The position numbers were made by a program, and so were the translations under genes. Below the pieces are notes generated by a model that was given only the letters and a program-made list of their open reading frames with translations, did no database searches and was not told the origin of the DNA. A DNA stretch of 37,034 bases from Sulfurimonas sp. Its GTDB lineage: Bacteria; Campylobacterota; Campylobacteria; Campylobacterales; Sulfurimonadaceae. How positions within the stretch are numbered: position 1 is the first letter of the stretch; each line of letters begins with the position of its first letter. Where the stretch lies: contig NZ_JALUKE010000068.1 of assembly GCF_027056685.1 (NCBI RefSeq), positions 1 to 37,034 on the forward strand. Reading direction: 5' to 3'. Below, piece after piece: positions 51 to 35,528 of this stretch.

Positions 51-809
51 TTAAGCAAGAGATAATATTTCAGCTTTACCGTTGATAACTGCAACAGTAT
101 GCTCATAGTGTGAACCGCGTAAACCATCGGTACTAACAACATCCCACCCATTTTCTAAAATAACAGGTTTCGCCTCTTTTTGACATATCATAGGTTCCAA
201 ACAAAAAACCATTCCATTTTTTATCTTCGGTCCAGCTTTTGCTTTTCCACCTTCAAGATAATTTGGAATCTCTGGTTCTTCATGAGGTTTTCGCCCTATT
301 CCATGTCCACAAAAGTTACGAAGAGGTACAAAACCACGCTCTAATATAAACTGCTCCATCATTGAAGAGAGTTCTTTAAAACGCATTCCCTGTTTAATAT
401 TTTCTATTGCATAATAGAGCGTATCTTTTGAACAGGCAATTAAATCTTCATCCTCTTTTGTAATTTCTCCTACACCCATACTAATTGCAGCATCACCAAA
501 CCAACCCTCAAGCTCTGTACCGACATCATAGCCAATAACATCACCCTCTTGGAGTTTATAGTCTGAAGGAATACCATGAATGATAACCTCATTAAGTGAA
601 GTACATACTGCGTTTGGAAAGCCGTAAAGACCTTTAAAAGATGGTTTTGCACCATGAGAGCGAATATAATCCTCTGCCATAGCATCCATCTCTTTAAGAG
701 TCATACCAACCTTTGTATTTTCACGAAGAAGTTCTAGCGTGCCACCAACAATTTTGTTGGCAGCTCTTAGTTTTTCTATTTCTGCTGGTTTTTTAAGTCC
801 GATAGCCAT
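51..809 (-). CDS. map: methionine aminopeptidase type I
   Basis: 252 aa; 'IIHGIP', 'GDVIGYDVGTELEGWFGDAA', 'CGHGIGRKPHEEPEIPNY' typical of MetAP; position after secY. Confidence 0.95.
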   Translation of the reverse strand: MAIGLKKPAEIEKLRAANKIVGGTLELLRENTKVGMTLKEMDAMAEDYIRSHGAKPSFKGLYGFPNAVCTSLNEVIIHGIPSDYKLQEGDVIGYDVGTELEGWFGDAAISMGVGEITKEDEDLIACSKDTLYYAIENIKQGMRFKELSSMMEQFILERGFVPLRNFCGHGIGRKPHEEPEIPNYLEGGKAKAGPKIKNGMVFCLEPMICQKEAKPVILENGWDVVSTDGLRGSHYEHTVAVINGKAEILSLA

Positions 810-811
810 AG

Positions 812-2074
812 TTATAGACCAACCGCACTTAAAGTTTCATATTTACTCATATAGATTTGCGCTTCAATTTTTCTCATAGTGTCAAGAGCAACTTGAACCA
901 CAATAAGAACCGCAGTACCACCAAAGAAAAATGGTACACCCATACCTTTAATAATCATAAATGGTAAAGTAGCCACAAGTCCAAGATACAAAGCACCTGT
1001 AAAAGTTAAATTACTCGCTGTTGTATTTAAAAACTCTTTTGTAGCATTACCAGTACGAATACCAGGAATAAAACCACCCTGTCGTTTAAGATTATCTGCT
1101 ATATCTTTTGCATTAAATGTAATAGATGCATAAAAGAATGCAAAGAAAATTACAAATGTAAATGTCAAGAAGTTAAAGAAGTAACCACCAGGATGTAAAA
1201 AGTCAGCTATTGCTTGAATAGTTGGATTTGTACTACTTCCTAAAACAGTCATTGGGAACATTAAAATCGCACTTGCAAAGATAACTGGAATAACACCAGC
1301 TAAGTTTACTTTAATTGGAATGTAATTCATAACTCGTTTATTTTGATTTTGCATCATAGTTTTTTTAGCATAGGTAACAGGTACACGGCGTTCGCCAAGT
1401 TCTACATAAATAATAATACCAACAGTTGCTAAAACTAATACAATTATAGCTATTACAGTTAAGAAACTCATAGCACCCGTATTTACCATTTCAACAGTTT
1501 GACCGATGGCTCTAGGAATTGCAGATACAATACCAGCAAAGATAATTAAAGAGATACCATTACCTATACCACTTTGAGTAATTTGTTCACCAATCCACAT
1601 AAGAAGCATAGTCCCTGCAAGCATAGAAACAGCAGAAAGAAGAATAAATGTGTTGTGATCAGCTAAAATAGCACTGTTACCACTAGGTCCTGTTAAACTC
1701 TCTAATCCAACACTCACACCTACTGCCTGAACTAAAGTAATAGCAATTGTTGCATAACGAATAATTTGCATATACTTAGTCATACCATCACGCTCTTTTT
1801 TCATTTGACCTAAAGTAGGAAAAGTTGCAGCAAGAAGCTCCATAATAATTGAAGCAGTGATGTAAGGCATAATACCAAGAGAAATTACAGATAATCTTTG
1901 AATAGCATTACCGCTAAACATATTCATAAGACCTAAGGCATCTGATTGGTGAGAGTTGAAGAATGAAGCAATAACAGAAGTATCTACGCCTGGAACTGGC
2001 ACATAAGCCAGAAGGCGGTAGATAAATAAAAAACCGATAGTAATAAGGATCTTATTAACTAGATTTTTATTCAT
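812..2074 (-). CDS. secY: preprotein translocase subunit SecY
   Basis: 420 aa multi-TM; 'YVPVPGVD', 'GIMPYITASIIMEL', 'GIGNGISLIIFAGI' motifs. Confidence 0.97.
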   Translation of the reverse strand: MNKNLVNKILITIGFLFIYRLLAYVPVPGVDTSVIASFFNSHQSDALGLMNMFSGNAIQRLSVISLGIMPYITASIIMELLAATFPTLGQMKKERDGMTKYMQIIRYATIAITLVQAVGVSVGLESLTGPSGNSAILADHNTFILLSAVSMLAGTMLLMWIGEQITQSGIGNGISLIIFAGIVSAIPRAIGQTVEMVNTGAMSFLTVIAIIVLVLATVGIIIYVELGERRVPVTYAKKTMMQNQNKRVMNYIPIKVNLAGVIPVIFASAILMFPMTVLGSSTNPTIQAIADFLHPGGYFFNFLTFTFVIFFAFFYASITFNAKDIADNLKRQGGFIPGIRTGNATKEFLNTTASNLTFTGALYLGLVATLPFMIIKGMGVPFFFGGTAVLIVVQVALDTMRKIEAQIYMSKYETLSAVGL

Positions 2075-2079
2075 AATAT

Positions 2080-2478
2080 TTAGTTACCTGTAGTAGTAAC
2101 GTTTTCGTCTTTAATTTTCGATGCTAAATCTTTCGCTTTTGCACCTACTAGTTTAATTTTAGCTACTGAATTTGCAACTTTATGAACACCACGGATTGTC
2201 TCCATTGTGATCTCTTCAAGTTCAGCTACAGCTTTAATTTTTTCTATGTTTATTACATATGGTTTCACTGTATTAGAGTGAAAACCAATTTTTGGTAAAC
2301 GTTTTGCAAGTGGTTGTTGCCCACCTTCAAAGTTTCTTTTTCTTTTGTAACCTGTACGAGACTTTTGACCTTTTTGACCACGAGCTGCAGTCTTACCAGT
2401 ACCAGAAGCTTGTCCACGACCAACTCTTTTACGAGAGTGAGTTGAACCCTCTGCAGGTTTTAAGTTTTCAATACCCAT
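2080..2478 (-). CDS. rplO: 50S ribosomal protein L15
   Basis: '[25 protein letters not shown]' L15 N-terminus. Confidence 0.95.
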
Positions 2479-2937: not shown

Positions 2938-3294
2938 CTAGAACTTAATTTCGTTTGCACGAAGTGAATCACCAAACGCAGCAATAACGCCGTGATATTG
3001 GTAACCATTACGATCAAAAACAATTTCAGTGATGTTTGCTTCTTTTAGTTTAGCAGCGAATGCTTCACCAAGTGCAGCAGCACCTTCTTTGTTTGCTTTA
3101 TGACCAGTAGCCTTTGAATGTAGTGCGCATAAAGTTGTTGCAGTTGCATCATCTATAGCTTGTACACTGAGGTAACGGTTTGATTTAAATACAGAAACAC
3201 GAGGAAGTTCAGCACTACCAGATATCTTTGCACGAATACGACGCTTACGTTTTAAACGGTTAGCAATTTTGCTTTTTAATACTTTAGCATTCAT
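2938..3294 (-). CDS. rplR: 50S ribosomal protein L18
   Basis: '[18 protein letters not shown]...[20 protein letters not shown]'. Confidence 0.95.
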
Positions 3295-4328: not shown

Positions 4329-4514
4329 TTACCAAGAAGACTTTCTAACACCTGGGATTAATCCCTCGTTTGCCATTTTTCTAAAACAAATACGACAAAT
4401 TCCAAAATCTCTAAGAACAGAGTGTGGACGACCACAAATCTGACAACGTGTATATCCACGTACTTTAAATTTTGGAGTTCTGTTAGCTTTAGCTATCATA
4501 GACTTTTTAGCCAT
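4329..4514 (-). CDS. rpsN: 30S ribosomal protein S14, zinc-binding (C+) type
   Basis: 61 aa with CQIC..CRIC zinc-ribbon cysteines. Confidence 0.95.
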
Positions 4515-5059
4515 TAGTTACTCCCTTTAGTAAAAGGCATTCCCATTTTCTCTAGTAGAGTAAACGCAGCCTTATCAGAATCAGCAGTTGTAACAACTGT
4601 GATATTCATACCGTGGATTTGCATGATTGAATCATAGCTAACCTCTGGGAAAATAAGTTGTTCTTGAAGACCGAAGTTATAGTTACCACGACCGTCAAAT
4701 CCATTACTTGGAACGCCACGGAAATCTTTTACACGAGGAAGTGCAATAGATACGAGGCGATCAAAGAAGTTATACATATTTTCACCACGAAGAGTTACAC
4801 GAACACCAACTGGCATACCTTCACGAACCTTGAAACCTGCAACAGATTTCTTAGCGATTACTGTAGAAGCTTTTTGACCAGCGATAGTTGTAATAGTATC
4901 TTCAATGTTTTGAATAAGTTTGTTATCTTTCATAGCAAAACCAGCACCAACAGAGATAATAACTTTATCTAATGCAGGAATCTGCATTACATTTTTAATA
5001 TCTAAAGCTGCTTGAATCTCTGGCTTGAGAGATAAATATTTTTCTTTTAAACGAGCCAT
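4514..5059 (-). CDS. rplE: 50S ribosomal protein L5
   Basis: '[32 protein letters not shown]'. Confidence 0.97.
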
Positions 5060-5063
5060 CTAA

Positions 5064-5294
5064 TTATGCCTCCACTTTACGTACATTTGAAACATCGATA
5101 GGCATTTCTTTATTGATATGCCCACCTTTAGTGTTCTCTTCAGTTGGTTTAATCGCTTTTTTAGCAATTTTACAACCCTCTACGATTACTTTGTTTTTCT
5201 TTGGCATAACTGCAAGTACAGCTGCTTTTGTACCCTTGTCATCACCAGCGATAATTTCTACCATATCGCCTTTTTTGAAATTAAATTTTGCCAT
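5064..5294 (-). CDS. rplX: 50S ribosomal protein L24
   Basis: KOW-type '[23 protein letters not shown]'. Confidence 0.95.
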
Positions 5295-5662
5295 TACACA
5301 ACCTCCGGAGCAAGAGATACAATTTTCATGAATCCAGCGTAACGCACTTCACGACCAATTGGTCCAAAAATACGAGTACCGATAGGCTCTCTCTTGTCAT
5401 CAAGTATTACAGCTGCATTGTCATCAAAACGGATTAGTGAACCATTTTCACGCTGAACTTCTTTATGAGTTCTTACAACAACAGCTTTTACAACTTTACC
5501 TTTTTTAACTTTAGCAGTTGGAATCGCTTTTTTTACAGAAGCGACAATAACATCACCTACTGAAGCATAACGACGCTTAGAACCACCAAGTACCTTAATA
5601 CACATAATCTCTTTAGCACCTGTATTATCAGCTACATTCAGACGAGTAAAACCTTGAATCAT
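5294..5662 (-). CDS. rplN: 50S ribosomal protein L14
   Basis: '[33 protein letters not shown]'. Confidence 0.97.
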
Positions 5663-5663
5663 A

Positions 5664-5909
5664 CTACGCTCCTTTTACAACTGACTTAAGTCTAAAAGAT
5701 TTAGTCTTAGAAAGTGGACGACATTCGATTGCAATAATCTCATCTCCAACTTTTACTTCATTACGCTCATCATGTACCAAGTACTTTTTGAAACGTTTTA
5801 CAACTTTATGATAACGAGGATGCATTACACGGCGTTCAACAACAATAGATACTGTTTTATCACCTGCAATTTTAATTACGTTACCTTGAATTTCACGTTT
5901 ATTAGCCAT
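5664..5909 (-). CDS. rpsQ: 30S ribosomal protein S17
   Basis: '[35 protein letters not shown]'. Confidence 0.95.
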
Positions 5910-5919
5910 CGCTCGTCCC

Positions 5920-6108
5920 CTAGTTTGCTACTGCAGCAAGTGCAGTATTGATTCTAGCAATATCTTTTTTAGCAACACGAAGTTCGCTAGTATTTTGTAA
6001 TTGCATCATCTTTTGTTTAATTTTTAAAGTAAACAATTCAGTTTTTTTCTCTTTAAGCATTGCTTGAAGCTCTGCTGCTGTTTTATCTGCTAAATCAGAA
6101 TATTTCAT
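5920..6108 (-). CDS. rpmC: 50S ribosomal protein L29
   Basis: 62 aa; '[41 protein letters not shown]'. Confidence 0.93.
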
Positions 6109-6514
6109 TGCTCATCTCCGCAGTAATAATTTTTGTTTTGAATGGTAACTTGTGCATAGCAAGAGTTAACGCTTCACGAGCGATATCATGTGGCACACCA
6201 CCCATTTCAAAAATGATACGACCTGGTTTGATGTTCATTACCCATTGATCAACTGCACCTTTACCTTTACCCATACGAGTTTCAAGAGGTTTAGCAGTTA
6301 ATGGTTTAGCAGGGAATACACGAATCCAAATTTTACCATTTCTTTTAATGTGACGAGTAGAAGAGATACGAGCCGATTCAATCTGACGAGAGTTGATACG
6401 ACCAGCTTCTACTGCTTTTAATGCAATGTCACCAAAAGCTAATTTGTAACCTGAACGAGCATAACCACGGTTACGACCTTTCATTACCTTACGATATTTT
6501 GTTCTTTTTGGCAT
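6095..6514 (-). CDS. rplP: 50S ribosomal protein L16 (start taken at MPKRTKYRK)
   Basis: '[19 protein letters not shown]'; ORF track starts 2 codons earlier. Confidence 0.95.
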
Positions 6515-6522
6515 TAACATAA

Positions 6523-7236
6523 TTATTCAGCCTTTTCACTATTTTCACGACGCGGTTTTCTTGGACGGCGTTCTTTTTTCTCTTCTTTTGCTTCTGCAGG
6601 AATACCTTTAGTAAGTACTTCACCTTTGAAGATCCATACTTTTACACCGATAATACCGTATGTAGTATGCGCTTCAGCAAAACCATAATCGATTTTTGCA
6701 CGAAGTGTATGAAGAGGAACACGACCTTCTAAATACCACTCAGTACGAGCCATTTCAGCACCACCAAGACGACCAGCAACTGCTACTTTGATACCTTTAG
6801 CACCAGATCTTTGCGCACCTTGCATAACTTTTTTCATAGCTCTTCTAAACGCAATACGACGCTCAAGTTGAGTAGCAACATTTTCAGCAACTAATTGCGC
6901 TGAAGTTTGTGCTTTTTTCTCTTCTTTAATGTTAATAGAGATAGCTTTACCAACTAACTTTTGAAGAGCAGTTTTAAGTTTCTCAATATCAGCACCTTTT
7001 TTCCCAATAATAATACCAGGACGAGCTGCAACGATAGTTACACGAAGTCTTTTCACTGTTCTTTCAATGATGATGTTAGAAACACCAGCATAGTAAAGTT
7101 CTTTCTTTAAAAATGTTCTTATCTTGTGATCTTCACCTAAAGCTGCCGGAGCAGTTTTAAAATTAGGAAACCATCTTGATTCCCAGTTACGGTTGATTCC
7201 AAGACGCAAACCAATAGGATTAACTTTTTGACCCAT
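6523..7236 (-). CDS. rpsC: 30S ribosomal protein S3
   Basis: '[23 protein letters not shown]', KH-domain '[16 protein letters not shown]'. Confidence 0.97.
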
Positions 7237-7237
7237 A

Positions 7238-7555
7238 CTATTTACCCTCTACTTCTACTAAGATATGTGCTGTTGGTTTTCTAATACCTGAAGCCATACC
7301 ACGAGCTCGTGGACGGAAACGCTTAAGTACAGGACCATTGTCAACACGACATGATGTAATTACACAATCTTCAGCTTCACTACCACTGTTAGCAACTGCA
7401 GATGCAATTACTTTAGAGATAATTTTTGCTGCCTTATTTGGAGTGAATTCTAAAGCTGCCATAGCCTCTTCAGCATTCATACCCTGCACTTCACGAGCAA
7501 TAAGACGAGATTTGATCGGAGATACACGGATAAATTTTAATAATGCTCTAGCCAT
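7238..7555 (-). CDS. rplV: 50S ribosomal protein L22
   Basis: '[28 protein letters not shown]'. Confidence 0.95.
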
Positions 7556-7557
7556 GA

Positions 7558-7833
7558 CTACCCCTTCTTCTGAACAGAGCCCTTATGGCCCTTAAATGTA
7601 CGAGTTGGTGCAAATTCACCAAGTTTATAACCAATGTGATTCTCTGTAACATATACAGGAACAAATTGGCGACCATTATGAACATTTAATGTTAAACCAA
7701 CCATTTCAGGAAGAACCATAGATCTTCTTGACCAAGTTTTAATAGGTTTTTTATCTCCACTAGCTTTCGCTGCTTCAACTTTTTTCATTAAATGAGCATC
7801 TACGAATGGACCTTTTTTTACTGAACGAGCCAT
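7558..7833 (-). CDS. rpsS: 30S ribosomal protein S19
   Basis: '[19 protein letters not shown]...[12 protein letters not shown]'. Confidence 0.97.
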
Positions 7834-7834
7834 A

Positions 7835-8680
7835 TTAGCCTACCCTTTTTGCATTTGGTTTACGACGAGTGATGATTAATTTATCACTTGCTTTCTTACG
7901 ACGAGTTTTAGCACCCTTAGTTGGTTTACCCCAAGGAGTAACTGGATGACGACCTGAATTCGTTTTACCTTCACCACCACCATGTGGGTGATCAATAGGG
8001 TTCATAGCAGAACCACGAGTTTGAGGACGAATACCCAAGTGACGTTGACGACCAGCTTTTGCTATTACTATATTTGAAAATTCTTCATTCCCAACAATAC
8101 CAACTGTTGCCATACATTCACCAAGAACTAAACGCATTTCAGATGAAGGCATACGTAATGAAACATATTTACCATCACGACCCATAATTTGAGCAGATGT
8201 TCCAGCTGAACGTACCATTTGTCCACCTTTTCCAACTTTTAACTCAACATTATGAACAAGTGTACCAACAGGAATGTTTTGAAGTTTCATAGCATTACCT
8301 GCTTTAACATCTAAACCAGTATCTGCAGATGCAATTTTATCGCCTACACTTAAACCTTTTGGTTGTAAAATATATCTTTTTTCACCATCAGCATAAGTGA
8401 TAAGTGCAATACGACAGTTACGGTACGGATCATATTCGATTGTACTTACTGTTCCTTCAATACCAAATTTATCTCTTTTAAAATCGATAATACGGTAAAG
8501 TTTTTTAGCACCTGCTTGTTTATGACGAGATGTGATACGACCATTATTGTTACGACCAGCAGTTGTTGGAAGTTTTGTTAATAATGAACGAACGCTCGCT
8601 TTAGCAGTGATATCTGAACTATCTACATTCGTATAAAAACGACGAGATGGAGTTATCGGTCTATAAGTTTTAATTGCCAT
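7835..8680 (-). CDS. rplB: 50S ribosomal protein L2 (start taken at MAIKTYRP, 8680)
   Basis: '[14 protein letters not shown]...[13 protein letters not shown]'; the 10-aa ORF extension overlaps rplW and is unlikely. Confidence 0.97.
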
Positions 8681-8681
8681 C

Positions 8682-8963
8682 TTATACCGCCAAACTTTCG
8701 ATTTGTGCACCCTCAGGTAAAGTTACATAAAACTTTTTAAAGTCATTTTGTTTACCAGCTACACCACGGAATCGTTTTACTTTTCCGCTTTGATTTAGAG
8801 AGTTTATTTTTGTTGGAATAATTCCGAAATACTCTCTAAAAACCTCTTTAAGACCTGTTTTACTCATACGAGGTGATGTTTGAACAACAATAACACCATC
8901 TTCTTGTAAACCTAAAGTCTTTTCTGTATAAAGTATAGATTTAATATCTGTAATATCAGCCAT
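8682..8963 (-). CDS. rplW: 50S ribosomal protein L23
   Basis: Position and '[18 protein letters not shown]...[34 protein letters not shown]'. Confidence 0.93.
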
Positions 8964-9577
8964 TACTTAGCCTCACTTGTCAAAGTTTCCCATACAGCTT
9001 TTTCTATCACGATAGAGCGATAGTTTGCAGCTAAGTATGCATTTAACTCATTTGATTCGATTACATATGTTGCATTTAAATTTTCAAATGCTAAAAATGT
9101 TTTCTCATCTAATAAAGATTTAACAAAAAGTGTATCTCTTTGGTTAAGTGCTTTGAACATTGCTGCAGCGTCTTTAGTTTTACCAGACTCAACAGAGATG
9201 CTATCTACAACAAAAAGAGTACCATTTTGTGCATGCTCATTTAAAGCAAAGTTTAAAGCAAGTTTCTTTTGCTTTTTATTTACTTTTAAATCATAGTTGC
9301 GGTTGTTTTGAGAACCAAAAGCTTTACCACCACCTACGAAGATTGGAGAACGACGTGAACCAGCACGAGCGCGTCCGCCACCTTTTTGAGCCCATGGTTT
9401 TTTACCACCACCACGCACTTCACTTCTACCTTTAGTAGTCGCTGTATTTGCACGTTGTGCAGCTTGAGCAGACTTAACATAAAGGTAAAGGTTGTGAGGG
9501 TTGATTCCTGAGAAATTCTCAGGTAATGCTAACTCAGATGCTTTTTCCATTTTTTCATTTAAAACGATTGCGCTCAT
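8963..9577 (-). CDS. rplD: 50S ribosomal protein L4
   Basis: '[34 protein letters not shown]'. Confidence 0.97.
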
Positions 9578-10152
9578 TATTTAGCTACCTTTACACGACC
9601 TAAAGCACCGTTTGCACCACTTACTGAACCTAAAACCGCGATGATTTTATTTTCAGCATCGAAAGAAACGATCTCATTTTTTACGCTATTTTTTGTGTTT
9701 CCGTAATGACCTGGCATTTTTTTACCTTTCATTACGCGACCTGGCCATTCAGCATTACCGATTGAACCTGTTCTACGACCAAATCTATGACCGTGAGATG
9801 CAGGACCACCACCGAAATTCCAGCGCTTCATTGCACCTGAAAAACCACGACCTTTAGTGTTGAAAGTAGATCTGACTACACTAGCTTCTGCTAATGGAGC
9901 GATATCTAAATCACCAGCTTCAGTGTTTGCTACTTCTAAAGTAACAAAACGGTTAAATTCAGATGGAAGGCTGTATTTCTTTTGTTGACCTTCAATTGCT
10001 TTATTCATTTTTTTACCGCTGTTGTAAGCAACAATAGCAGTACCTTCATTCACTTCACACACTTTCGCATCTAAAACTCTTAATAGAGTGACTGGTTTAG
10101 ATGGAACTGTGATAGTACGGCTCATTCCGATTTTTTCAACAATATATTCCAC
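9577..10152 (-). CDS. rplC: 50S ribosomal protein L3
   Basis: '[34 protein letters not shown]'. Confidence 0.97.
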
Positions 10153-10160
10153 GATTACTC

Positions 10161-10472
10161 CTATTTGTCCATAGAGCGAACTTCAACGTCCACTTCTGGT
10201 GCAAGATCTAGTTTCATTAATGAATCTACAGTTTCAGGTGTAGCAGAAACGATGTCGATCATTCTTGCGTGCATACGAATTTCAAATTGCTCACGAGCTT
10301 TTTTGTTAACGTGAACTGATTTCAAAACAGTATATTTACGAATTTTTGTTGGTAAAGGGATTGGACCACGAATTGCAGCACCTGTACGCTTTACAGCCTC
10401 AACTATTGACGCTACTGATCTATCAAGTACACGATGATCGTAAGCTTTCAATTTTAAACGAATTTTTTCCAT
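10161..10472 (-). CDS. rpsJ: 30S ribosomal protein S10
   Basis: '[39 protein letters not shown]'. Confidence 0.97.
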
Positions 10473-10527
10473 GTTTTTCCTTCTAAAGAACTCGTTGGAT
10501 CCTAGCCCAACTATTTAAGGGAGCGGA

Positions 10528-10556
10528 ATTATACTCCATTCACTCGAATTATTCAA
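10528..10556 (-). promoter_or_regulatory. sigma70-type promoter of the ribosomal protein operon
   Basis: Minus strand reads TTGAAT (10556-10551), 17 nt, TATAAT (10533-10528), about 56 nt upstream of the rpsJ ATG; RBS AGAAGGA precedes the start. Confidence 0.8.
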
Positions 10557-10593
10557 GGATTTGGGGGGTAAAAAGTGATTTTATTGTAAATTT

Positions 10594-10614
10594 ATTTCCT
10601 TTTAATAAGGAAAT
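10594..10614. promoter_or_regulatory. 8+8 bp inverted repeat ATTTCCTT-TTAAT-AAGGAAAT, possible operator
   Basis: Perfect dyad in the divergent intergenic region, 34 bp upstream of the ATPase ATG. Confidence 0.4.
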
Positions 10615-10647
10615 GATAACATTGTAATTCTAAAAAATAGGAAAATT

Positions 10648-12264: not shown

Positions 12265-12350
12265 TATAAACGAAAATAATAACAACACTACAGTTAACAT
12301 TATTTTAATAATAAACATAATATAATAAAATAAAATTTCAAGGTGCTCAA

Positions 12351-12866: not shown

Positions 12867-12878
12867 CTAAAACAAGCT

Positions 12879-22187: not shown

Positions 22188-25100
22188 ATGCGTATTATTT
22201 TTTTACTATTTCTTTTTTTACTTACTCTTTATGCAAAAAGTACAGATAGCTGTTATACTGTACAATTGCAAAGTGCTCTTTACTCTCCCAGTAGCCTTAG
22301 TCAACTAGAGAAAAAAAGATTCCCTACTGAATGTACGCTAATGCGTATTTCAAATACACTCACAGTAAGATGTGGATGCTTTAATCATATAAAAGAAGCA
22401 GCAAAAGGATTACCAAAGTATAAATCAAAATATAAATATGCCTATATAGCTACAAGTTATAAATATAGATTTAATAAAAAAGCGATAAACAAAGCAAATC
22501 TCACACAACCATCACATAGTGCATATAGCAGCAATGAAGAGCTAAAACTGATGCTACAAGCATTTTTATACTCCAATGATTTACCACATGCATACCAGAC
22601 TGCAAAATTAGGCTATAAAAAACATCCTAATTCATACTACTGGAACCAAAAAATGGCTGAAGTTTGTAGATGGAGCGGTAAAACTACTGAGTCTATAAAA
22701 TATATGAAATTTATGTACCATACAAAACATAATCCAAAAGTTGCCAATAACATCATAAATCTTGCATTACAAGATTACCAGTATGAATCTATAAAAAATC
22801 TTACAAGAGAAGAGGTAAAGCGAAATCCTTCAAAAAAAAATATAGATAGAATGGTCTATATCTATTCACAAATAGGTGAGCCAGAAGCAGCTGCACAATT
22901 TTTAGAAAATCTTTACACAAAAGATAAACAACATCCTCAATATCTCGATAAAGCACTGCAGATTTATATGAATATGTCTGATTTGGATGCAGCAGGTAAA
23001 ATCATATCTATTATTGAGACAAACAAGCTTTATACTCTTAACAATGTAAAACTTATCTCTTATTATTACTACTCTAAACGCAGCGTTTCTAAATCTTTTG
23101 AGGTTCTTGAAGAGATTAAAAATCCTAATAAATATGACAAGCAGTATTTAAAATTAAAAAGTGATTTGGGTTGGTATTTAGAAAAATTTGCACCGGCAGC
23201 AAATGCATCTTTAGAGCTTATCAAACACAAAGAGGGCAGACTCGTTGATTATGAGAGAGTTATAGCGTTTAACAGAACGAAAAATAAAACTTTAGCTGGT
23301 AAAATGGCATTAAAGGCATATAATAAATTTCATCTCTCGTATCTTTTTTACCTCTTTGCAAATAAGTTGATACAAGAAAATGATATGCAAACATTGCAAA
23401 CAGAGATACTGAGCATAGATAAACAAGCAAATTCTCAACTTCTTAATGATCCAAATTATTGGTTTATTAAAGCAAAACTTTATCATTATGAAAAAAAGAA
23501 TTTCCTAGCAAAAAATGCAATAGAACAAGCAGTTTTACGAAAACCAAACTCTTTGCAAGTAAAATTTACCGCTATCAATCTCTACCAAGAGTATGGCATG
23601 TTTAATGCCTTACGCCAAGAGTTAATCAAACTCAACACAGATACTACATTACCACATGAGTTTTATTTTCCAATGGCATCTTTTTCTTTTGCAATAAATG
23701 ATATTAATCTTGCAAATTACTATGTTCAAAAGCTCATTCAAGAGAAAAATCAGATTATCAATACGACAGAGTTTAAATTCTTACAAGCAGACATCTACAA
23801 TATTAGAAATAATCACAATGCTTATCTAACTATGCTCCATACTATAGTTGCACAACTAGATAAAGACGCAGTACTAGATCCAGAAATTAAAAAAGATGAT
23901 ATGTATCTCTACAATCTACTCAGAGCAAAAATGAGTCTACTTACTTCTGACGATTTTATACAAAAGCTTAAACAAGCAAAACCCTACCTTACACAAGCAC
24001 ATTATGATGATTTAGCTTACTCTTTAGCACTTAAGAATGGTAGTTTAGAAAAAGCACACTCTATCTACCTTCGTACAAAAAATAGAGCTATATGGCTTCA
24101 GTTTTCTGATGCTCTTAATCAACAAAATCATACAAAAATTGAAAATCTTCTTAGTGCATATCTCTATAGTATATCTAGCGGTGATGCTTCGTATGCAGCA
24201 GAACTTGATGGACAAATTGCACTAGCACAGAGTATGAGTTACAAAACACTGGCACACAATGATGATAATCAAAATGCCTATATATCTCTGCTTGGACTTG
24301 TCAAAAAACGCGCAGATCTTACCTCTATTAAGAGTGCCTATTACCTACGCGACCCGCTTCTTAGAAAATATATAGCAATTAAGAACTCAAATTATATTAA
24401 TGATAGTTACTACTTACTTAGTAACCTCAACTACTACCGCAATAGCGACTTAGATAAAAATTTACTTAGAGAAGTTCCTGATGATACTCTTGAGCTTAAT
24501 CTTGGTTTGAAAAAGCTGTTTGACAAAGGTATGCTTACCTTTATAGCGGGATATGCAAATAGTATGGATAGCTATTTTGTGTATTCTCTCTTTGGCAAAT
24601 ATCAGCTTACAAAAGAGTTGAATGTTGGTGGGGGATACTACAAAAATGTGAGAACAGATGAGTCAACACAGCTACTTCTTGGTGGTAAAAAAGATAAAAT
24701 CGAACTCAAAGCAAATTATGCAATTTTAAATTCCACAGATTTAGATATTTTATACGAATACAATCGCTACAACTCGCAAGATGATGTTTATCTCGGTAAT
24801 GGTGAATATGTAAGAGTAAACCTTGGACACCAAATTCGTAATGGATACCCAGATATGAGACTCTCTCTTTTTAGTGATGGCGCTATTTACAATGAAACTT
24901 CTGGTAAAAAAGGAGTTATAGATAAACTCCAAGCACCACGCTCACAAGTTTTACCAAACAATTTTATGAATTTAGGTGTTGATTTTGCCTATGGTATGCA
25001 AAACAGTGACATTTATACAAGAGTTTGGAGACCATACTTTGAAGTAAGTAGCTACTACAACACAGACATTGCTGCGTTTAGTTATGGTTTTAATGCTGGC

Positions 25101-25229
25101 TATGGAGGAAAAGTTTACTCACAAGACCATCTCGTCATCGGTACAAGTTACACAAACTCTGTAAATGGTATTGGAGGCAGTATTTTTGAACTCTTTTTAA
25201 ATTACAAATTTCTCTATGCACCTAGATAG
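22188..25229 (+). CDS. pelB: PelB-like outer-membrane exporter: signal peptide, SPOR-like domain, TPRs, C-terminal beta-barrel
   Basis: 1013 aa; signal peptide 'FLLFLFLLTLYAKS'; TPR middle; C-terminal aromatic/alternating strands ending 'ELFLNYKFLYAPR'. Confidence 0.8.
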   Translation: MRIIFLLFLFLLTLYAKSTDSCYTVQLQSALYSPSSLSQLEKKRFPTECTLMRISNTLTVRCGCFNHIKEAAKGLPKYKSKYKYAYIATSYKYRFNKKAINKANLTQPSHSAYSSNEELKLMLQAFLYSNDLPHAYQTAKLGYKKHPNSYYWNQKMAEVCRWSGKTTESIKYMKFMYHTKHNPKVANNIINLALQDYQYESIKNLTREEVKRNPSKKNIDRMVYIYSQIGEPEAAAQFLENLYTKDKQHPQYLDKALQIYMNMSDLDAAGKIISIIETNKLYTLNNVKLISYYYYSKRSVSKSFEVLEEIKNPNKYDKQYLKLKSDLGWYLEKFAPAANASLELIKHKEGRLVDYERVIAFNRTKNKTLAGKMALKAYNKFHLSYLFYLFANKLIQENDMQTLQTEILSIDKQANSQLLNDPNYWFIKAKLYHYEKKNFLAKNAIEQAVLRKPNSLQVKFTAINLYQEYGMFNALRQELIKLNTDTTLPHEFYFPMASFSFAINDINLANYYVQKLIQEKNQIINTTEFKFLQADIYNIRNNHNAYLTMLHTIVAQLDKDAVLDPEIKKDDMYLYNLLRAKMSLLTSDDFIQKLKQAKPYLTQAHYDDLAYSLALKNGSLEKAHSIYLRTKNRAIWLQFSDALNQQNHTKIENLLSAYLYSISSGDASYAAELDGQIALAQSMSYKTLAHNDDNQNAYISLLGLVKKRADLTSIKSAYYLRDPLLRKYIAIKNSNYINDSYYLLSNLNYYRNSDLDKNLLREVPDDTLELNLGLKKLFDKGMLTFIAGYANSMDSYFVYSLFGKYQLTKELNVGGGYYKNVRTDESTQLLLGGKKDKIELKANYAILNSTDLDILYEYNRYNSQDDVYLGNGEYVRVNLGHQIRNGYPDMRLSLFSDGAIYNETSGKKGVIDKLQAPRSQVLPNNFMNLGVDFAYGMQNSDIYTRVWRPYFEVSSYYNTDIAAFSYGFNAGYGGKVYSQDHLVIGTSYTNSVNGIGGSIFELFLNYKFLYAPR

Positions 25230-26279: not shown

Positions 26280-26825
26280 TTATACAGCCACATTCATAGC
26301 TAATTGTGCCATCTTTTGCATATATACTGCCACATCACCATCTACTTCAAGCACTTTTTTTAACTCATTTATAAAGTACTCTTTTGTTCTCTCATCTGCG
26401 ATGTTAAAAGTATAAAGTACCCACTCTGTATTGAGCATAATTTTCTCACCATTTTTCTCTACTTCAAATGCTCTATAGAGATTTATATCAGTAGTAGCAA
26501 GGAGGGCTAAAACCTCTTTATAAAAATCATTAACATCCCTCTTTACTAAAGAAGCTAACTCGGCTTGCTTTATTTTAGCATCAACATCATTAAAATCTTC
26601 GCGTCCAAAAATAAGAGCATCTCCGATGATAAGCTGTTCACCTAAAAAATAGGCACTTTTTTTCTCGCTCAAAGCATTTGCATCAGCATAAATCACATGC
26701 TCTTTTATACTTTCAAGCTCATCTATTAAAATAGAACTAAAAAAGGTGTAGAGTGTATTCGCCGCCATCTCAAGTTCTATCTCTTTTACCTCTTGCGTTT
26801 GTGCGTCTATTGTGAGTGCTTTCAT
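26280..26825 (-). CDS. hypothetical protein, N-terminal part DUF3846-like
   Basis: 181 aa; 'MKALTIDAQTQEVKEIEL....HVIYADANALSEKKSAYFLGEQLIIGDALIFGRED'; abuts moeA. Confidence 0.6.
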   Translation of the reverse strand: MKALTIDAQTQEVKEIELEMAANTLYTFFSSILIDELESIKEHVIYADANALSEKKSAYFLGEQLIIGDALIFGREDFNDVDAKIKQAELASLVKRDVNDFYKEVLALLATTDINLYRAFEVEKNGEKIMLNTEWVLYTFNIADERTKEYFINELKKVLEVDGDVAVYMQKMAQLAMNVAV

Positions 26826-28054
26826 TAAAATTCATCCAAAAGTATTACATTTACATAAGTCCCAGCTTCGAGAAACTTATCATCTTCTCCAGCTACCATA
26901 AGAGCAGAATTATCAAGCATATTGACTAAAATTGCCGAGCTTCCCACCTTTTTACCCTCAAAGTTAATGTAGTATTCACCATCTTCTACCACAACATTAC
27001 AAGCAGTAAACTCAGTAAATCGGCTGCGTTTTTTAAAATCACTTTGCAGTTTTGCAGCAACCATTTTATAGGGTGCATCTTTTGCTAGCATTTTGGCAAT
27101 AAGTGGAAGTACATACAAAATTGCAGTAACAGTTGAAGAGTAAGCAAATCCAGGAAGGGCAATTATAAATTTATTTTCACGCTGTGCTACAAGAATATGA
27201 CGACCAGGTTTGATGCCGACACCTTTATAGACTATTTGAGCCCCTAAACGAGGAATAATATCTTTTACAAAATCATAATCCCCTACACTTACTCCGCCGG
27301 TACTTACAACTATATCTGCTGATTCAAGTGCATTCTCAAAAGTATGCATAATAGCATCTCTATCATCAGGAGCAGTTCCAAGTTGTACCGGCTCTGCACC
27401 AGCTGATTCAAAAAGGGCTGCTAGTGTGTAGTTGTTTGAACTTCTAATCTGTGCTGGATTATCAGAGTTTTCACCCAAATCAAGTATTTCACTTCCTGTT
27501 GCTATCACTGCTACGCGAGGGCGAAGCGCTACTTTTACCATTACCTTGTTTAACCCTGCCATTACACCAATTTCAGCAAAACCAATCTTTGTACCTTTTT
27601 TAATAAGCACTTCACCAGCTCTGTAACCTTCACCAATAGGACGGACTGCGTTTGCAAGTTCTACCATTTCATTGATGATAATTTTTCCATCTTCAAAAGT
27701 TACATTTTCTATCTGAATTAAAGTATCAGCACCTGCTGGCATCATGGAACCTGTAAAAGTTTTAATACACTCATTTGCTTGAAGCTCTCTTGTTTCGTCA
27801 TGTCCTGCAGGATTATCACCAAGAACTACAAACTCTTTGCCCTCTTCTAAATCTTCATATCTTACTGCATACCCATCCATAGACGCAGTAGGAAACTGAG
27901 GGTCATTAAACTCTGCTGCTATGTCCTCAGCGAGTACACGTCCAAGAGAATCACTCAATGGCACTCTCTCAAAGCGTACTGCGTTTACACAAAGTAAATC
28001 CAACATATTTTGACTTGTCTCATACGAAATAAAATCTACACCCGTTATACTCAT
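26825..28054 (-). CDS. moeA: molybdopterin molybdenumtransferase
   Basis: 'FPTASMDGYAV', 'FTGSMMPAGADTLIQIE', 'VSTGGVSVGDYDFVKDI', 'KPGRHILVAQ'. Confidence 0.95.
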   Translation of the reverse strand: MSITGVDFISYETSQNMLDLLCVNAVRFERVPLSDSLGRVLAEDIAAEFNDPQFPTASMDGYAVRYEDLEEGKEFVVLGDNPAGHDETRELQANECIKTFTGSMMPAGADTLIQIENVTFEDGKIIINEMVELANAVRPIGEGYRAGEVLIKKGTKIGFAEIGVMAGLNKVMVKVALRPRVAVIATGSEILDLGENSDNPAQIRSSNNYTLAALFESAGAEPVQLGTAPDDRDAIMHTFENALESADIVVSTGGVSVGDYDFVKDIIPRLGAQIVYKGVGIKPGRHILVAQRENKFIIALPGFAYSSTVTAILYVLPLIAKMLAKDAPYKMVAAKLQSDFKKRSRFTEFTACNVVVEDGEYYINFEGKKVGSSAILVNMLDNSALMVAGEDDKFLEAGTYVNVILLDEF

Positions 28055-28500
28055 GATTTTGCTCCTAAAATTCCGCTACCTTTAATAGCAGTTGATCTCT
28101 TCTTTGCATAAACTCTTTTGCCATCTATCAAATCATATTTCCAGATGGGAGCACTTGCCTTAAAATCTTCAACAAATGCATCAATAAACTCCAGAGCAAC
28201 CCTGCGTTTAGGAGAGAAAACTGCTGCAATATAAGAAGATTCATGAAGCATTACATCCCCACGAGAGTGTGCCATTTTTATTACGGCACCCCTCTCCTTT
28301 GCTTTTGTCTGCCACGCTTCAAACCAAGAGTTTAAAATCGGCTCATAAATGTCAAAACTAAGCCCATCTATGCCATCTTCACTACGCACAGTTCCCACAA
28401 ACGGAATATATGCACCGTAATTACTTTGAGCTTCGGCTTCATACCACTCTTTTAAAAGTTTAGGCACATCTAATGAACCATTATAAAGACTAAGCATCAC
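28051..28500 (-). CDS. moaE: molybdopterin synthase catalytic subunit
   Basis: 'GAYIPFVGTVRSEDG', 'HSRGDVMLHESSYIAAVFSPKRRVALEFIDAFVEDFKASAPIWKYD'. Confidence 0.93.
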   Translation of the reverse strand: MMLSLYNGSLDVPKLLKEWYEAEAQSNYGAYIPFVGTVRSEDGIDGLSFDIYEPILNSWFEAWQTKAKERGAVIKMAHSRGDVMLHESSYIAAVFSPKRRVALEFIDAFVEDFKASAPIWKYDLIDGKRVYAKKRSTAIKGSGILGAKS

Positions 28501-28722: not shown

Positions 28723-28789
28723 AAGAACATCCTATTTATTTATTAAAACAATTATATCTAAGATAAGTTAAGTGCTGTATAATTGCAGT

Positions 28790-29452
28790 ATGATTTTTGG
28801 AAAAATAGAATACCTTAACCTCCTCCCTTTTCATGTCTTCATGAAACGCTTTACAAAAAACTCCCAACAAAAACTTACTATGGAGTACAAAAAGAATGTT
28901 CCTGCAAAGGTAAATAGAGACTTTTTACGCAAAAGTGTTGATGCTGCGTTTATATCAAGCATTAAAGCAAAAAAGCAAAAGCATCTGAATTTAGGCATTA
29001 TTGCAAAGAAAAATGTACGAAGTGTATTGGTAATTCCAAGCAAAGAGTCAAAGTCTGATGTAGAGTCTGCCTCTTCTAATCTTTTAGCAAATATATTAAA
29101 TATTCAAGGTGAAGTTCTTATTGGAGATAAAGCACTAAGATATGCCCTTAAAAACAGTGATTACATAGATTTAGCAGAAGTATGGCATGAAAAATATAAT
29201 TTACCTTTTGTATTTGCACTTTTATGTTATCACAAAGATAAAAGATTATATAAAAAAATAGAAAAAGAGTTTTTAAAAAGAGAGGTTAAAATTCCGCAAT
29301 ACCTCTTAAAAGAGGCATCTAAACGGACAAGTGTAGAGACAAAAGAGATACAAAACTACCTCAAACTTATCTCATACAAAGTAGATTATAAAGCACAAAA
29401 AGCACTTAAAAAATTCTACAAAGAGGAAAAAGCGTTACGCTTTTCCATCTAA
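28790..29452 (+). CDS. mqnA: chorismate dehydratase MqnA-like (futalosine menaquinone pathway); ATG at 28790 preferred over the GTG at 28772
   Basis: 'FGKIEYLNLLPFHVFMKR', 'DAAFISSIKAK', 'LAEVWHEKYNLPFVFALLCYHK'. Confidence 0.75.
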   Translation: MIFGKIEYLNLLPFHVFMKRFTKNSQQKLTMEYKKNVPAKVNRDFLRKSVDAAFISSIKAKKQKHLNLGIIAKKNVRSVLVIPSKESKSDVESASSNLLANILNIQGEVLIGDKALRYALKNSDYIDLAEVWHEKYNLPFVFALLCYHKDKRLYKKIEKEFLKREVKIPQYLLKEASKRTSVETKEIQNYLKLISYKVDYKAQKALKKFYKEEKALRFSI

Positions 29453-30793: not shown

Positions 30794-32053
30794 CTAAATT
30801 TTATGTAAGAAAATAACACAATTTCCTTTAGGGTTGTAATAAATACCCATTGAATTTTTTCGAGAGACAAAAACACCTCGTCCATTAAACTTTAATGAGT
30901 TTCTAAAAATCTCACTAAGTATCTGTGTATCAAAACCATCTCCCTCATCAGCTATTTTAGTAACAATATACTCTGATTCTAACTCTTTGAGTTTAAATAT
31001 TTGGACTGAAATCTTTTTTTGAGACTCTTTTTCAAGTTTTTGTAGAGATTCAAAGTAAATATCTTCTTCAAGATACCTATGTTTTGTACGAGAATCCAAG
31101 CCTAAATTACCATGTTCATAAGCATTCATAAAAAGCTCACTAAAAACAAGACCTGCCCTATAAGCTATCTTAGTATCTACTTGTAAATTTTTCCAAATTT
31201 CTTCATACCAAACATTTGCTGCTTCAACTGCATCAAGCGTAGTTGCAAAAAGCTTTTTTTCTAAAAGTGTCTCTTCTCTCAAATCCAAACTATTAATAAA
31301 TATAAGAGTTAGATCATCCTCTTGCTCTGTTATTTTTGCAAAAAACTTCTCTTTAAACTCCTCTCTTGAAAAAGAAAATTTAAAATCCTCTTCTATAAAC
31401 GCAGCGTAGGTTATACCATGAGTATTAGTCTGATTTTCAACAACACCATCGCTATAAAAAAGGTATTTATCTATATCTTTAACATCTCTTCTATCTATGT
31501 TATAGCTACTTTGCCATTTACTCATAGGTGTATTGTTTGATTTTATTTTAATAATGTTCTCATTTTTATCTTGGAATAAAAAAGGAGGCATCGCAAATTT
31601 TGCATACTCTAACTCTTTGAAATAGGTATCAAAACAAATATAGTCTATAGCCAAAGCCTCTTCATCAAGTAAAATTGGCTGAATGTATGCCATTGATTCT
31701 TGAATAAGCAAGTCAAGAGAAAAACTCTCATGTTCAAGCATTTTATCTACTAGATGATTTATAAAAGTTGTCATAATAACAGCGGTAAAAGAGGCAGATA
31801 TTCCTTTGCCCATGCCATCAACAATCAAATAAAAAGTTTTATGTTCATTAATGCGTCTAGCGCTATATGCATCACCACTTAACACATCAAGAGGCTTATA
31901 AATAAAATCTACTAAAGAAGTAGCCTTTACATCTATAAGTTGGTAGTAAAAATCATTTCGCAAAATATTAAGCTCTTTTTTAAAAGCCAATTCAGACTGA
32001 TATGAAGAGTATGCTTCACTCTTTTCTAGCTGTTTATACCTCTGGAGTGTCAT
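30794..32053 (-). CDS. PP2C/SpoIIE-type phosphatase fused to a C-terminal SpoIIAB/RsbW-like HATPase
   Basis: 'YLIVDGMGKGISASFTAVIMTTFI', 'LFYSDGVVENQT'; N-box 'GLVFSELFMNAYEHGN', G-box 'IADEGDGFD'. Confidence 0.88.
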   Translation of the reverse strand: MTLQRYKQLEKSEAYSSYQSELAFKKELNILRNDFYYQLIDVKATSLVDFIYKPLDVLSGDAYSARRINEHKTFYLIVDGMGKGISASFTAVIMTTFINHLVDKMLEHESFSLDLLIQESMAYIQPILLDEEALAIDYICFDTYFKELEYAKFAMPPFLFQDKNENIIKIKSNNTPMSKWQSSYNIDRRDVKDIDKYLFYSDGVVENQTNTHGITYAAFIEEDFKFSFSREEFKEKFFAKITEQEDDLTLIFINSLDLREETLLEKKLFATTLDAVEAANVWYEEIWKNLQVDTKIAYRAGLVFSELFMNAYEHGNLGLDSRTKHRYLEEDIYFESLQKLEKESQKKISVQIFKLKELESEYIVTKIADEGDGFDTQILSEIFRNSLKFNGRGVFVSRKNSMGIYYNPKGNCVIFLHKI

Positions 32054-34023
32054 TAAATTTTAAATTTACTCAAAGCATTTTGTAGCGTTTTAGCATCATT
32101 GGTCAGTGCATCTACCGCTGCTTCTACTGTAGTACGCAGTTTACTGTTTTTAGAAGCCACTTCTACTATTTCATCCATTGTTTCTATCAATGTTTTTGTT
32201 TTTGTTGCGATGAAGACACTCTGATGCATTACCTCAGTTGATTTGTCTTTTGTAGAGCGTAAATTCTCTTTTGTCTCATTAGAAGAGACAATAAGCTCTT
32301 GCGCTGATGCTGAAATAGTGTCCATACTCTGTGAAGTAGTATCAGTCTCTTCAGCTATTTCAACAACATTTTGAGTGATAAGATTTACATTCGCACTGAT
32401 TTCACTTAAACTTTTTTGTGTACGCTCTGCAAGCTTTCTTACCTCATCTGCAACAACAGCAAAACCTCTACCATGTTCACCTGCACGGGCTGCTTCTATG
32501 GCTGCGTTTAGCGCAAGTAGATTTGTCTGATCTGCAATATCAGAGATAATTGCAAGCACATCTTTAATATTTTTTGCCTGTTCTGTTAAAGATGCCACTT
32601 TTTCTACAAGATTTTGCTGCTGCTCGCTACCATCTTCAATGGAAGAGACAACTGAACCAAGTTTTACAATAAAACCATCAAGCACATTAAATGTAGTATC
32701 TAAATCTTCAGTAACAGTAATAGTAGAATCTTCTACAATATCTAATTTTTCACCTATCTCTGCAACTAAACCATTTACAGCGCTAATGCCATTCTCTTCT
32801 TGCTTGCTATTTGTTGCCAAAGTATCTACAACTTTTTCTAGTTTAGCACTCTCGCGTGTATTTGCATTTGCCACATCTTGTGCTTCATAAACAGTCTCTT
32901 TAAAGGCAATTATCATAACATGTAGAGCTTTTGAAATCTGTGCTATTTCATCATTTCCTTCAACAACAACACTACAAGAGAGATCAAGTTCACTAGAGAT
33001 ACAGTGAATTTTATCAAGAGAACTTCGTACACTTTTATTTATACCTCGAGAAATTATCATAATGATAATAAAAATCGCAATGGCAAACAGTATATACCCC
33101 ACAAGTGTTATAAGTGTATCCATTTCATATTGTGATTCTACTGCTGCTAAAAGTTTATCATTTTGTTTTGCAAGAGTATCATCAACTTTTTTCAAAAGAT
33201 TTATTTTTTTTGTGATTGTTTTAAACCATACAACACTATCCACACCAAAATCAGATTGTCGCGATTTTGCTATGCTTCGCATTCTATCCACTTGCGCTAC
33301 AACAGGAGAGTCCATTGTTTTTTTATACATACGAACTGCATCATCACTCGCGATACTTTTAAAAGCATCAATATAAGCATTTTGCTGCGCAAGAAGTGTA
33401 ATAAACTTGGCATACATACCACTACCAAACTTATCGGATGCAAAAGTAGCACTTAAAACAGCACGCTCTATCCCTGCTCTCTCTTTAGATTTTAAAAAGT
33501 TGGTATAAGCACTCAAAGCTTTAACAAGTTCAGGAGTGTTTGCAAGTTTTGCTGTAAGAGAGACCACATCTAAAATGTTTTTATTAACACCACTATAATA
33601 TTTTACTTCATTTTTTACAGAAATTTTAAAACTATTTACCTCTGCTCTGACACTACTTAGTTTGTCCATTCCAGATACTATTAATCTAATACTTTTTTGT
33701 AGCTTACTTGGGTACTCAGATAAATTTAAAGTAGTAATATAAGCCTTTAAATTACTATATCGTGCATCTGTCAGCTTTCTCTGTTTTGGCAAAATATCAC
33801 CAAATTTTTTCCCATGAGAGCCAAGATACCCAGCACTTGCTCCTCTCTCTTTTTGTGTTTCATGAATGACTAAAGAGAGTTTTTGAGACAATACATTAAG
33901 CTCTTTTGCCTGATTGATTACTACTTCTTTGTTATAAGCTGTAACAACTGTTGCAATAATAATCACAAGCGCAAAAGAGACAACAATGCCCGTTATAAGA
34001 TTTAATTTGCCTTTAATAGTCAT
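32053..34023 (-). CDS. methyl-accepting chemotaxis-type protein with NIT sensor domain and HAMP
   Basis: NIT-like '[20 protein letters not shown]'; TM; HAMP; signalling tip '[34 protein letters not shown]'. Confidence 0.92.
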
Positions 34024-34313
34024 TATCTCTCCCTACTTACACGAAATAGTTGCACAAGATTAATTTCATCAAAGAGCTCATAAAGATTTGTATCTCCTAC
34101 TCTGATTTGAATATCAATATTGTCCTTTTGCACCAATTTTGTTAAATATCCAATAACGGATGATGTAATAGAGATAGAATCTTTAATAATGATAGTTACA
34201 TTTTTTGAACTAGCTACTACTTTCTCAAGCGTATCTTTTATTGTCTGATAATCTCCAATAGTTTTAATATTACCAGTAATTGTTACGCTGTTTCCTGATG
34301 TTACAATGTCCAT
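34023..34313 (-). CDS. STAS-domain anti-sigma factor antagonist-like protein
   Basis: 96 aa STAS-like alternation; '[21 protein letters not shown]' aligns with the SpoIIAA phospho-Ser region; TAATG coupling to the MCP gene. Confidence 0.75.
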
Positions 34314-34352
34314 TTTTCAACCTTTATTTTCGTTATACTAACATAGACGAAC

Positions 34353-35528
34353 TTAAGATTTTATTGCTTGTAGCCACTCCTTCATCTTCTTTTCATACCC
34401 GATCTCTTTAAGTTCCACGAACTGTAACGGCTCACTCAAATACTCTTGCTTGACATATCCTCCAAAATCATGTGGATAAAGATAGCCCTCATTTTGCTGT
34501 GAAATATTTTTTGGAATTTCAAGAATTTTTCCATCTCGTACACTTTGCAGTGCTTTGTTAATTGCCAAATATGCTGCGTTTGACTTTGGTGAAGCACAAA
34601 GATAGATGACAGCTTGAGCTAAGATTATTCTCGCTTCTGGGTAGCCTATTTTACTAACACTTGTTAGTGTAGAGGTTGTTAGTGTAAGGGCTTGTGGGTT
34701 TGCATTTCCTACATCTTCACTTGCTAAAATCACCAAACGCCTAGCAATAAACTCAGCACTCTCACCACCCTCAATTAATCGAGCAAGATAGTAAATAGCA
34801 GAATCAGCATCACTTCCACGAATAGACTTAATCATCGCAGAAGCCAAATCATAATGTACCCCTGCTTCAGAGCTTCCAGCCTGCAGAGCATTTGGACGAA
34901 GAGATTTTAAAAGTGCAAGTGTTATAGTGTTCGCTGCGTTTGAAGCAAACTCTAAAAGCTTTAACATAGCACGAGCATCGCCACCACTACTTAAAACAAG
35001 GTACTCTTTTGCATCATTTTCTATCGCTATGTCACCCTTTAATATTGCACGCAGAAGTAGATTATGTAAACTCTCATTTGAGATAGGTTTTAGTTCAAAA
35101 AGCATAGAGCGAGAACGGATGGCAGATGTTAGAGAAAAGAAAGGGTTTTCAGTTGAAGCACCTATAACTAACACGGAGTTGTTTTCCATAACAGGAAGCA
35201 GAACCTCTTGCTGATTTTTGGAGAGACGATGCACTTCATCTATAAATATAAGTGGTTTTTGTAGGGCATTTTTGTACTGTTCAAATATTTTTCGTAGCTG
35301 TTCTATTTTGAGAGAAGTTGCGTTTAGCTCATAAAAAGGGAGTTGCATACTCTTGGCAATAACTCTTGCCAATGATGTCTTTCCCACACCAGCAGGTCCA
35401 TAAAAAAAGCTATGCCCCAGTGCCTCTTTTTCACAGAGTAAACGCAGCGGCATCCCCTCTTGCACCAAATGCTCTTGACCTACAATATCATCAAAACCAG
35501 CAGGGCGTAAAAGATGTGTAAAGTCCAC
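34353..35528 (-). CDS. rarA: replication-associated recombination protein RarA/MgsA AAA+ ATPase
   Basis: 'LLRPAGFDDIVGQEHL', 'FFYGPAGVGKTSLARVIA', 'LIFIDEVHRLSKNQQE', 'VIGASTENPFFSL'. Confidence 0.93.
   Translation of the reverse strand: MDFTHLLRPAGFDDIVGQEHLVQEGMPLRLLCEKEALGHSFFYGPAGVGKTSLARVIAKSMQLPFYELNATSLKIEQLRKIFEQYKNALQKPLIFIDEVHRLSKNQQEVLLPVMENNSVLVIGASTENPFFSLTSAIRSRSMLFELKPISNESLHNLLLRAILKGDIAIENDAKEYLVLSSGGDARAMLKLLEFASNAANTITLALLKSLRPNALQAGSSEAGVHYDLASAMIKSIRGSDADSAIYYLARLIEGGESAEFIARRLVILASEDVGNANPQALTLTTSTLTSVSKIGYPEARIILAQAVIYLCASPKSNAAYLAINKALQSVRDGKILEIPKNISQQNEGYLYPHDFGGYVKQEYLSEPLQFVELKEIGYEKKMKEWLQAIKS

Follow-up and report, generated by a model that had tools for sequence, protein, structure and literature searches.

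YAAACGCAGY, a putative DNA uptake sequence with dialects in Sulfurimonas

Uptake words, by which DNA of the own kind is tagged for natural transformation, are known from the Neisseriaceae and Pasteurellaceae as the sole families, according to a 2025 paper (PMC12616744). The described words are present in hundreds to thousands of copies without a general orientation bias, and in all Pasteurellaceae and Neisseria uptake words one orientation is favoured within reading frames (PMC2346458). Here, a 37,034-nt stretch of a Sulfurimonas genome (contig NZ_JALUKE010000068.1, positions 1 to 37,034; referred to as the window) was analysed together with the genome it belongs to (G000, 2.01 Mb in 252 contigs) and with related genomes for a dispersed octamer, AAACGCAG. 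Judged from its sequence properties, the extended word YAAACGCAGY is probably a DNA uptake sequence of a Sulfurimonas species group. The word is genome-wide, non-polar, codon-independent and positionally conserved, it has dialects, and its hosts carry competence machinery.

In the window, 23 exact AAACGCAG octamers were found, 10 on the plus strand and 13 on the minus strand, compared with a mean of 0.95 and a maximum of 4 in dinucleotide shuffles. Under a third-order Markov model no octamer in the window was more strongly over-represented than AAACGCAG (23 observed vs 1.47 expected, z = 17.7). The sequence-only reading of this DNA had counted 22 copies (10 plus, 12 minus), which was right for the plus strand and one short for the minus strand. 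It had also placed a pyrimidine before every copy, which holds for 22 of the 23; the copy at 27024-27031 is preceded by A. The base on the 3' side is C in 16 copies, T in 5, A in 1 and G in 1. All 23 copies are located inside open reading frames (ORFs), and both sense and antisense copies occur, as that reading had described.

The copies are not confined to the window. In G000, YAAACGCAG was counted 1,251 times (629 plus, 622 minus), about one site per 1.6 kb, whereas the reversed-pattern control gave 17 (12 and 5). A 233-kb sample of G000 contained 180 AAACGCAG octamers vs 7.3 expected, with T or C at position -1 in 165 of them and C or T following the octamer in 142. The core of this word is (T/C)AAACGCAG(C/T), i.e., YAAACGCAGY, with a length of 10 bp and nearly information-free flanks. 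Among the 24 single-base variants, AAACGCAA alone was clearly raised in the sample (57 vs 15.5) and the rest were at or near background. For the window, the earlier statement that near misses are rarer was correct (AAACGCAA 5, AGACGCAG 2). Gaps between sites in the sample had a mean of 1.2 kb and a coefficient of variation of 1.23; against this background the uneven density pointed out earlier, with word-free stretches at 4570-11789 and 11879-18435, is unremarkable, and a 7-kb gap, though long, is by our estimate not significant in view of how many gaps there are. Contigs of G000 poor in the word (L088, L089, L094) carry ordinary core and secretion genes by eye, with no look of mobile elements.

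Site conservation followed the use of the word. In the following, the over-represented word of a genome is called its dialect, and the names D1 (YAAACGCAG), D2 (CCACATGCC), D3 (YTACATGTAR) and D4 (CTCACGCAR) are used. Of 31 sites aligned to near relatives that also use D1, 29 were intact, compared with 53% for octamers of like composition (p = 3e-6), and in the D1 locus L006, at 75% identity, 4 of 10 sites were intact vs 6.8% in the control (p = 0.004). In relatives using other words, 2 of 58 sites were intact, equal to the control, indicating that the octamer is held only where the word is in use. The distant D1 pairs L006/L055 and L184/L185 had zero sites in common, so the positions of sites turn over. 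When D1 sites were aligned with those of the sister dialect D4, they seldom coincided, and the aligned positions mostly held unrelated words. In-place conversion between D1 and D4 was accordingly rejected, and a new dialect seems to come by loss of sites and new gain.

Among 228 genomes of the family, an excess of YAAACGCAG was found in part of Sulfurimonas only, with up to 1,453 sites, and other genera were at background (about 2-60 per genome). A word search in 20-kb stretches of named relatives revealed different words in place of D1, about as dense as D1 is in its own genomes. Over whole genomes, D2 was counted 1,427 times in G238 and 1,393 times in G243 (controls 2-3), D4 532-725 times in five genomes including S. 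indica (controls 7-15), and D3 968 times in G264, 605 in G256, 543 in G267 and 347 in G242, the range in the richer Sulfurimonas genomes being 198-968 sites. A second family (f10) carries D3 as well: most of its sampled genomes had the word in strong excess, the highest count being 1,635 sites. In counts of D2 to D4 over 38-48 genomes, no genome was high in more than one of them; for D1, exclusivity is based on local 20-kb counts and on low D2-D4 counts in genomes with D1-bearing loci. On a rarA tree, which is a single, weakly resolved gene, the words clustered (20 changes vs a shuffled mean of 32.9), with ACGC-type words mostly in one half and ACATG-type words in the other, and with a D1 group (L055, L057, L059) amid the ACATG type. 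D2 sites in L011, L015, L022 and L125 were found between genes in 17 cases vs 9.3 expected, with close inverted pairs there. Samples of 10-80 kb gave further candidate words, namely AACACGCAA (L042), AGATGCAG (L003), TAAACGCGA (G085) and AAACGCCA (L012).

Several separate observations were made in the same survey. The palindrome YTACATGTAR has 1,300-1,635 sites per genome in f10 (G326, G378, G465, G493, G505 and others; locus L211). Elsewhere in the phylum, 20-kb samples of other families contained weaker candidates for over-represented words, AAGTCGCAA in L204 and AGATTCTA in L209 and L210. In G101, a complete Sulfurimonas genome with CTCACGCAA as its word, 90 copies of YAAACGCAG are on one strand and 15 on the other, an imbalance that probably stems from an array of repeats, for instance CRISPR, or from a repetitive gene.

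Genes for DNA uptake are widespread in these bacteria. ComEC was found in 122 of 134 genomes of the genus, in 78 of the 79 high-quality ones and in 91 of 91 genomes of a phylum-wide sample, and PilC-type proteins were present in all 18 genomes searched. In the loci L184, L185, L189, L193, L199 and L201 the genes for secretin, ATPase and platform protein adjoin in one shared order. In L184, which belongs to G000, family matches were to an MshL/PilQ-like secretin, a GspE/PilB-like ATPase and a GspF/PilC-like platform protein, with a PilO-like protein in addition; we take this operon to be Cts-like from the gene order of Campylobacter. Each genome examined for an apparatus of this type had one. 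Prepilins were detected in 21 of 21 genomes searched, including those without a seen word; the presence of the apparatus is therefore not in itself predictive of one.

A prepilin pair adjoins priA on the same contig as comEC. The gene for a 162-aa prepilin adjoining priA (L100:10656-11144, G000 C100) is hypervariable, since its product shares 41% identity between G000 and G159, a near-sister that also uses D1, and 72% between G000 and the distant D1 genome G259, as if its alleles were moving between species. Variation of a 208-aa prepilin follows phylogeny. Neither follows dialect, and neither appears to be its determinant. Elsewhere in G000 (L082:2557-8428, C7), the gene for a 1,443-aa protein adjoins two prepilin-like genes (306 and 208 aa); the large protein is perhaps a pilus-tip protein and a candidate site of the DNA receptor.

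An abundant intragenic word might be a by-product of bias in coding or mutation, through codon-pair preference or preferred peptides, for instance N-A or A-F, and the mostly genic location of the sites (109 sense and 67 antisense among 176 in ORFs) and their two favoured frames would be in line with this. Codon-preserving shuffles of the ORFs in the G000 sample, however, gave 14.3 ± 3.6 copies vs 176 observed, with the word as the top octamer of all, and the same held for D2 (6.8 vs 81), D3 (3.4 vs 39) and D4 (5.8 vs 82), which ruled out codon or peptide preference as the cause. Apart from AAACGCAA, the single-base neighbours of the word stay at background; the word itself is missing from other species of the genus, and its sites are conserved beyond controls. 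The by-product explanation is refuted by these tests and retains virtually no probability. The earlier judgement that neither codon preference nor a single protein motif suffices has thus been upheld, with counts far above both the Markov and the codon expectation. A dispersed mobile repeat or the binding site of a regulatory protein is very improbable as well. Copies are many and patchy across species, as either would allow, but a mobile repeat was ruled out because the flanks carry near-zero information beyond the 10-bp core, and nearly all copies are intragenic and in both orientations, unlike operators.

Polarity bears on the two remaining explanations, both of which concern the handling of the chromosome itself. 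A Chi-like site would switch the AddAB/RecBCD nuclease to recombination and be enriched in core DNA in a lineage-specific manner. The D1 word resembles such a site in being short, non-palindromic, over-represented, partly codon-independent and different between lineages, and neighbouring D1 sites show weak strand sharing. E. coli has a Chi site roughly every 5 kb, with strong polarity and near-exclusive placement on the leading strand (PMC8022716), whereas D1 is denser (about one per 1.6 kb) and its strand bias is 0.50-0.68. These values were obtained by maximum likelihood from strand counts per contig, the contigs being short, and were 0.54 (0.50-0.65) for G000, 0.60 (0.50-0.68) for other D1 loci and 0.50 for D2 and D4. 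D1 was not associated with local GC skew (229 vs 209). Polarity of the Chi type, or of the type of the FtsK-orienting polar sequences (KOPS), was thus not seen in the strand-bias fits on short contigs or in the GC-skew comparison, and D3 is unable to be polar because it is palindromic. The enrichment of about 25-70 fold found here is also far above that usual for Chi, and a Chi-like site is considered quite unlikely. A word for genome maintenance, i.e., for architecture, segregation or modification of the chromosome (KOPS/FtsK, a nucleoid protein, an orphan methylase or a HIP1-like repeat), is unlikely too. The words are distributed over the whole genome, and D3, palindromic over 10 bp and present at up to 1,635 sites, resembles HIP1; against this, KOPS-type words are strictly polar and the Sulfurimonas words non-polar, D1, D2 and D4 are non-palindromic, and a maintenance role would poorly explain why unrelated words have taken each other's place in sister species of a single genus. 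The absence of strand bias (629 vs 622, no link to GC skew), on which the sequence-only reading had preferred an uptake-type word to a polar KOPS-type motif, was confirmed, and its choice of an uptake-type word over Chi-like and architectural ones appears well placed in view of abundance, non-polarity, codon independence, conservation and dialects.

We infer that YAAACGCAGY is read during DNA uptake. A surface protein of the Cts-like apparatus would recognise and bind the local word in free DNA and thereby bias uptake; a minor pilin or pseudopilin is the probable candidate. Word-bearing DNA would enter cells and recombine more frequently, so that the word would accumulate and be kept by biased transformation, and a shift in the preference of the receptor would let a new word spread while the old one decays, producing dialects. 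High copy number, lack of replication orientation, dialects that follow phylogeny and uptake machinery in the host, all generic features of uptake sequences, were found here. On a broader scale, we lean towards the view that the Campylobacterota have evolved uptake signals of their own, independently of the Neisseriaceae and Pasteurellaceae. These signals would comprise at least four words, mutually exclusive where counted, with two unrelated cores (ACGC and ACATG), which replace one another within Sulfurimonas, one of them palindromic and common to another family, and would be read by a Cts-type apparatus.

Several observations weigh against an uptake function. Intergenic D1 sites are few (4 vs 8.4 expected), and adjacent D1 sites in different genes share a strand in 144 of 234 cases vs 120 predicted from gene directions (p = 0.001, a value that is too strong because the loci are partly homologous). 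The dialect is tracked by neither of the two pilins compared (162 and 208 aa), and in samples of 40 kb no clear word was seen in certain complete Sulfurimonas genomes that possess the uptake machinery too. D3 is palindromic, unlike known uptake words; it may be a separate phenomenon, and its standing as a dialect is less certain than that of the others. In the open literature searched, no uptake or transformation data were found for these organisms; no paper linking Sulfurimonas to an uptake sequence was found, the papers found on natural transformation and on the phylum had nothing about such words as far as titles and abstracts show, and a search on the D1 and D3 words returned nothing relevant.

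The copies of AAACGCAG in the window are distributed over the following ORFs. The ORF at 51-809 contains one sense copy at 608-615 (minus strand, CAAACGCAGT), and antisense copies on the plus strand are located at 2974-2981 (CAAACGCAGC) in ORF 2938-3294 and at 4562-4569 (TAAACGCAGC) in ORF 4514-5059. Two sense copies on the plus strand, at 11790-11797 and 11871-11878 (both TAAACGCAGC), are found in ORF 11713-12264. ORF 18381-21146 holds five, of which those at 18436-18443 (CAAACGCAGC), 19818-19825 (TAAACGCAGC) and 20766-20773 (TAAACGCAGT) are antisense on the minus strand and those at 18947-18954 (TAAACGCAGT) and 20933-20940 (CAAACGCAGC) are sense on the plus strand. These are followed by a sense copy at 21979-21986 (plus, TAAACGCAGA) in ORF 21118-22185, and by a sense copy at 23076-23083 (plus) and an antisense copy at 25072-25079 (minus), both TAAACGCAGC, in ORF 22188-25229. 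Three sense copies on the minus strand lie in ORF 26825-28054, at 27024-27031 (AAAACGCAGC, the sole copy without a preceding pyrimidine), 27646-27653 (CAAACGCAGT) and 27979-27986 (TAAACGCAGT), and a further one at 28202-28209 (minus, sense, TAAACGCAGG) lies in ORF 28051-28500. The copies at 28944-28951 (minus, antisense; ORF 28772-29452), 31397-31404 (plus, antisense; ORF 30794-32053) and 32502-32509 (minus, sense; ORF 32053-34023) are all TAAACGCAGC. The rarA ORF at 34353-35528 contains sense copies on the minus strand at 34574-34581 and 34934-34941 (both CAAACGCAGC) and an antisense copy on the plus strand at 35440-35447 (TAAACGCAGC). This rarA is 98% identical to the rarA of a Sulfurimonas metagenome-assembled genome, and the next-best matches are likewise from Sulfurimonas, in agreement with the Campylobacterota host assumed by the sequence-only reading.

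If the uptake function is true, Sulfurimonas would be a third, unrelated lineage with uptake words and the first in this phylum. Since such words have been described in only two proteobacterial families, the reasons for their existence and for their change rest on two cases, and an independent test would come from a third lineage whose members are free-living in vents and sediments and in which, across many related genomes, several words replace each other. Questions would be opened on whether words originate through biased uptake, on dialect switching, the genetic isolation of species and the protein that reads the word, and the finding suggests which DNA would transform Sulfurimonas.

Compared with described repeated words, HIP1 of cyanobacteria (GCGATCGC) is a very abundant genome-wide palindrome; genome-wide abundance is shared by the Sulfurimonas words and the palindromic form by D3, whereas D1, D2 and D4 are non-palindromic, and both phylum and sequence differ. 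The strong ori-to-ter polarity of KOPS/FtsK words is lacking in D1, as far as the short contigs show. Chi (PMC8022716) is likewise short, over-represented and variable between lineages, but the D1 word lacks its leading-strand polarisation, not being polarised with replication at all, and is denser, sharper and far more enriched. The uptake signal sequences (USS) of the Pasteurellaceae (AAGTGCGGT and ACAAGCGGT) are closer, with a 9-bp word, a similar density and a similarly low G+C genome (PMC1626085, PMC12616744), an in-frame orientation bias and two types in one family. Their sequence is unrelated, YAAACGCAGY having neither of these words nor the GCGG core nor a long flanking consensus. With the DNA uptake sequences (DUS) of the Neisseriaceae, the Sulfurimonas words share a 9-12 bp length, a non-palindromic form, about one to two thousand copies and no general strand bias (PMC3630211, PMC12616744), as well as several dialects that follow phylogeny (PMC3630211), and D2 forms inverted pairs between genes, as DUS do at terminators. 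They differ in being unrelated in sequence, without a single core common to all dialects, and in belonging to another phylum; D1 sites are mostly intragenic and D3 is palindromic. The DUS receptor is ComP, of which none was identified here, and the machinery of Sulfurimonas resembles the Cts system of Campylobacter. YAAACGCAGY is not related to ATGCCGTCTGAA, has no CTG core and has no Neisseriaceae host. The D1 word is outside the DUS and USS families as these are defined by sequence and taxon.

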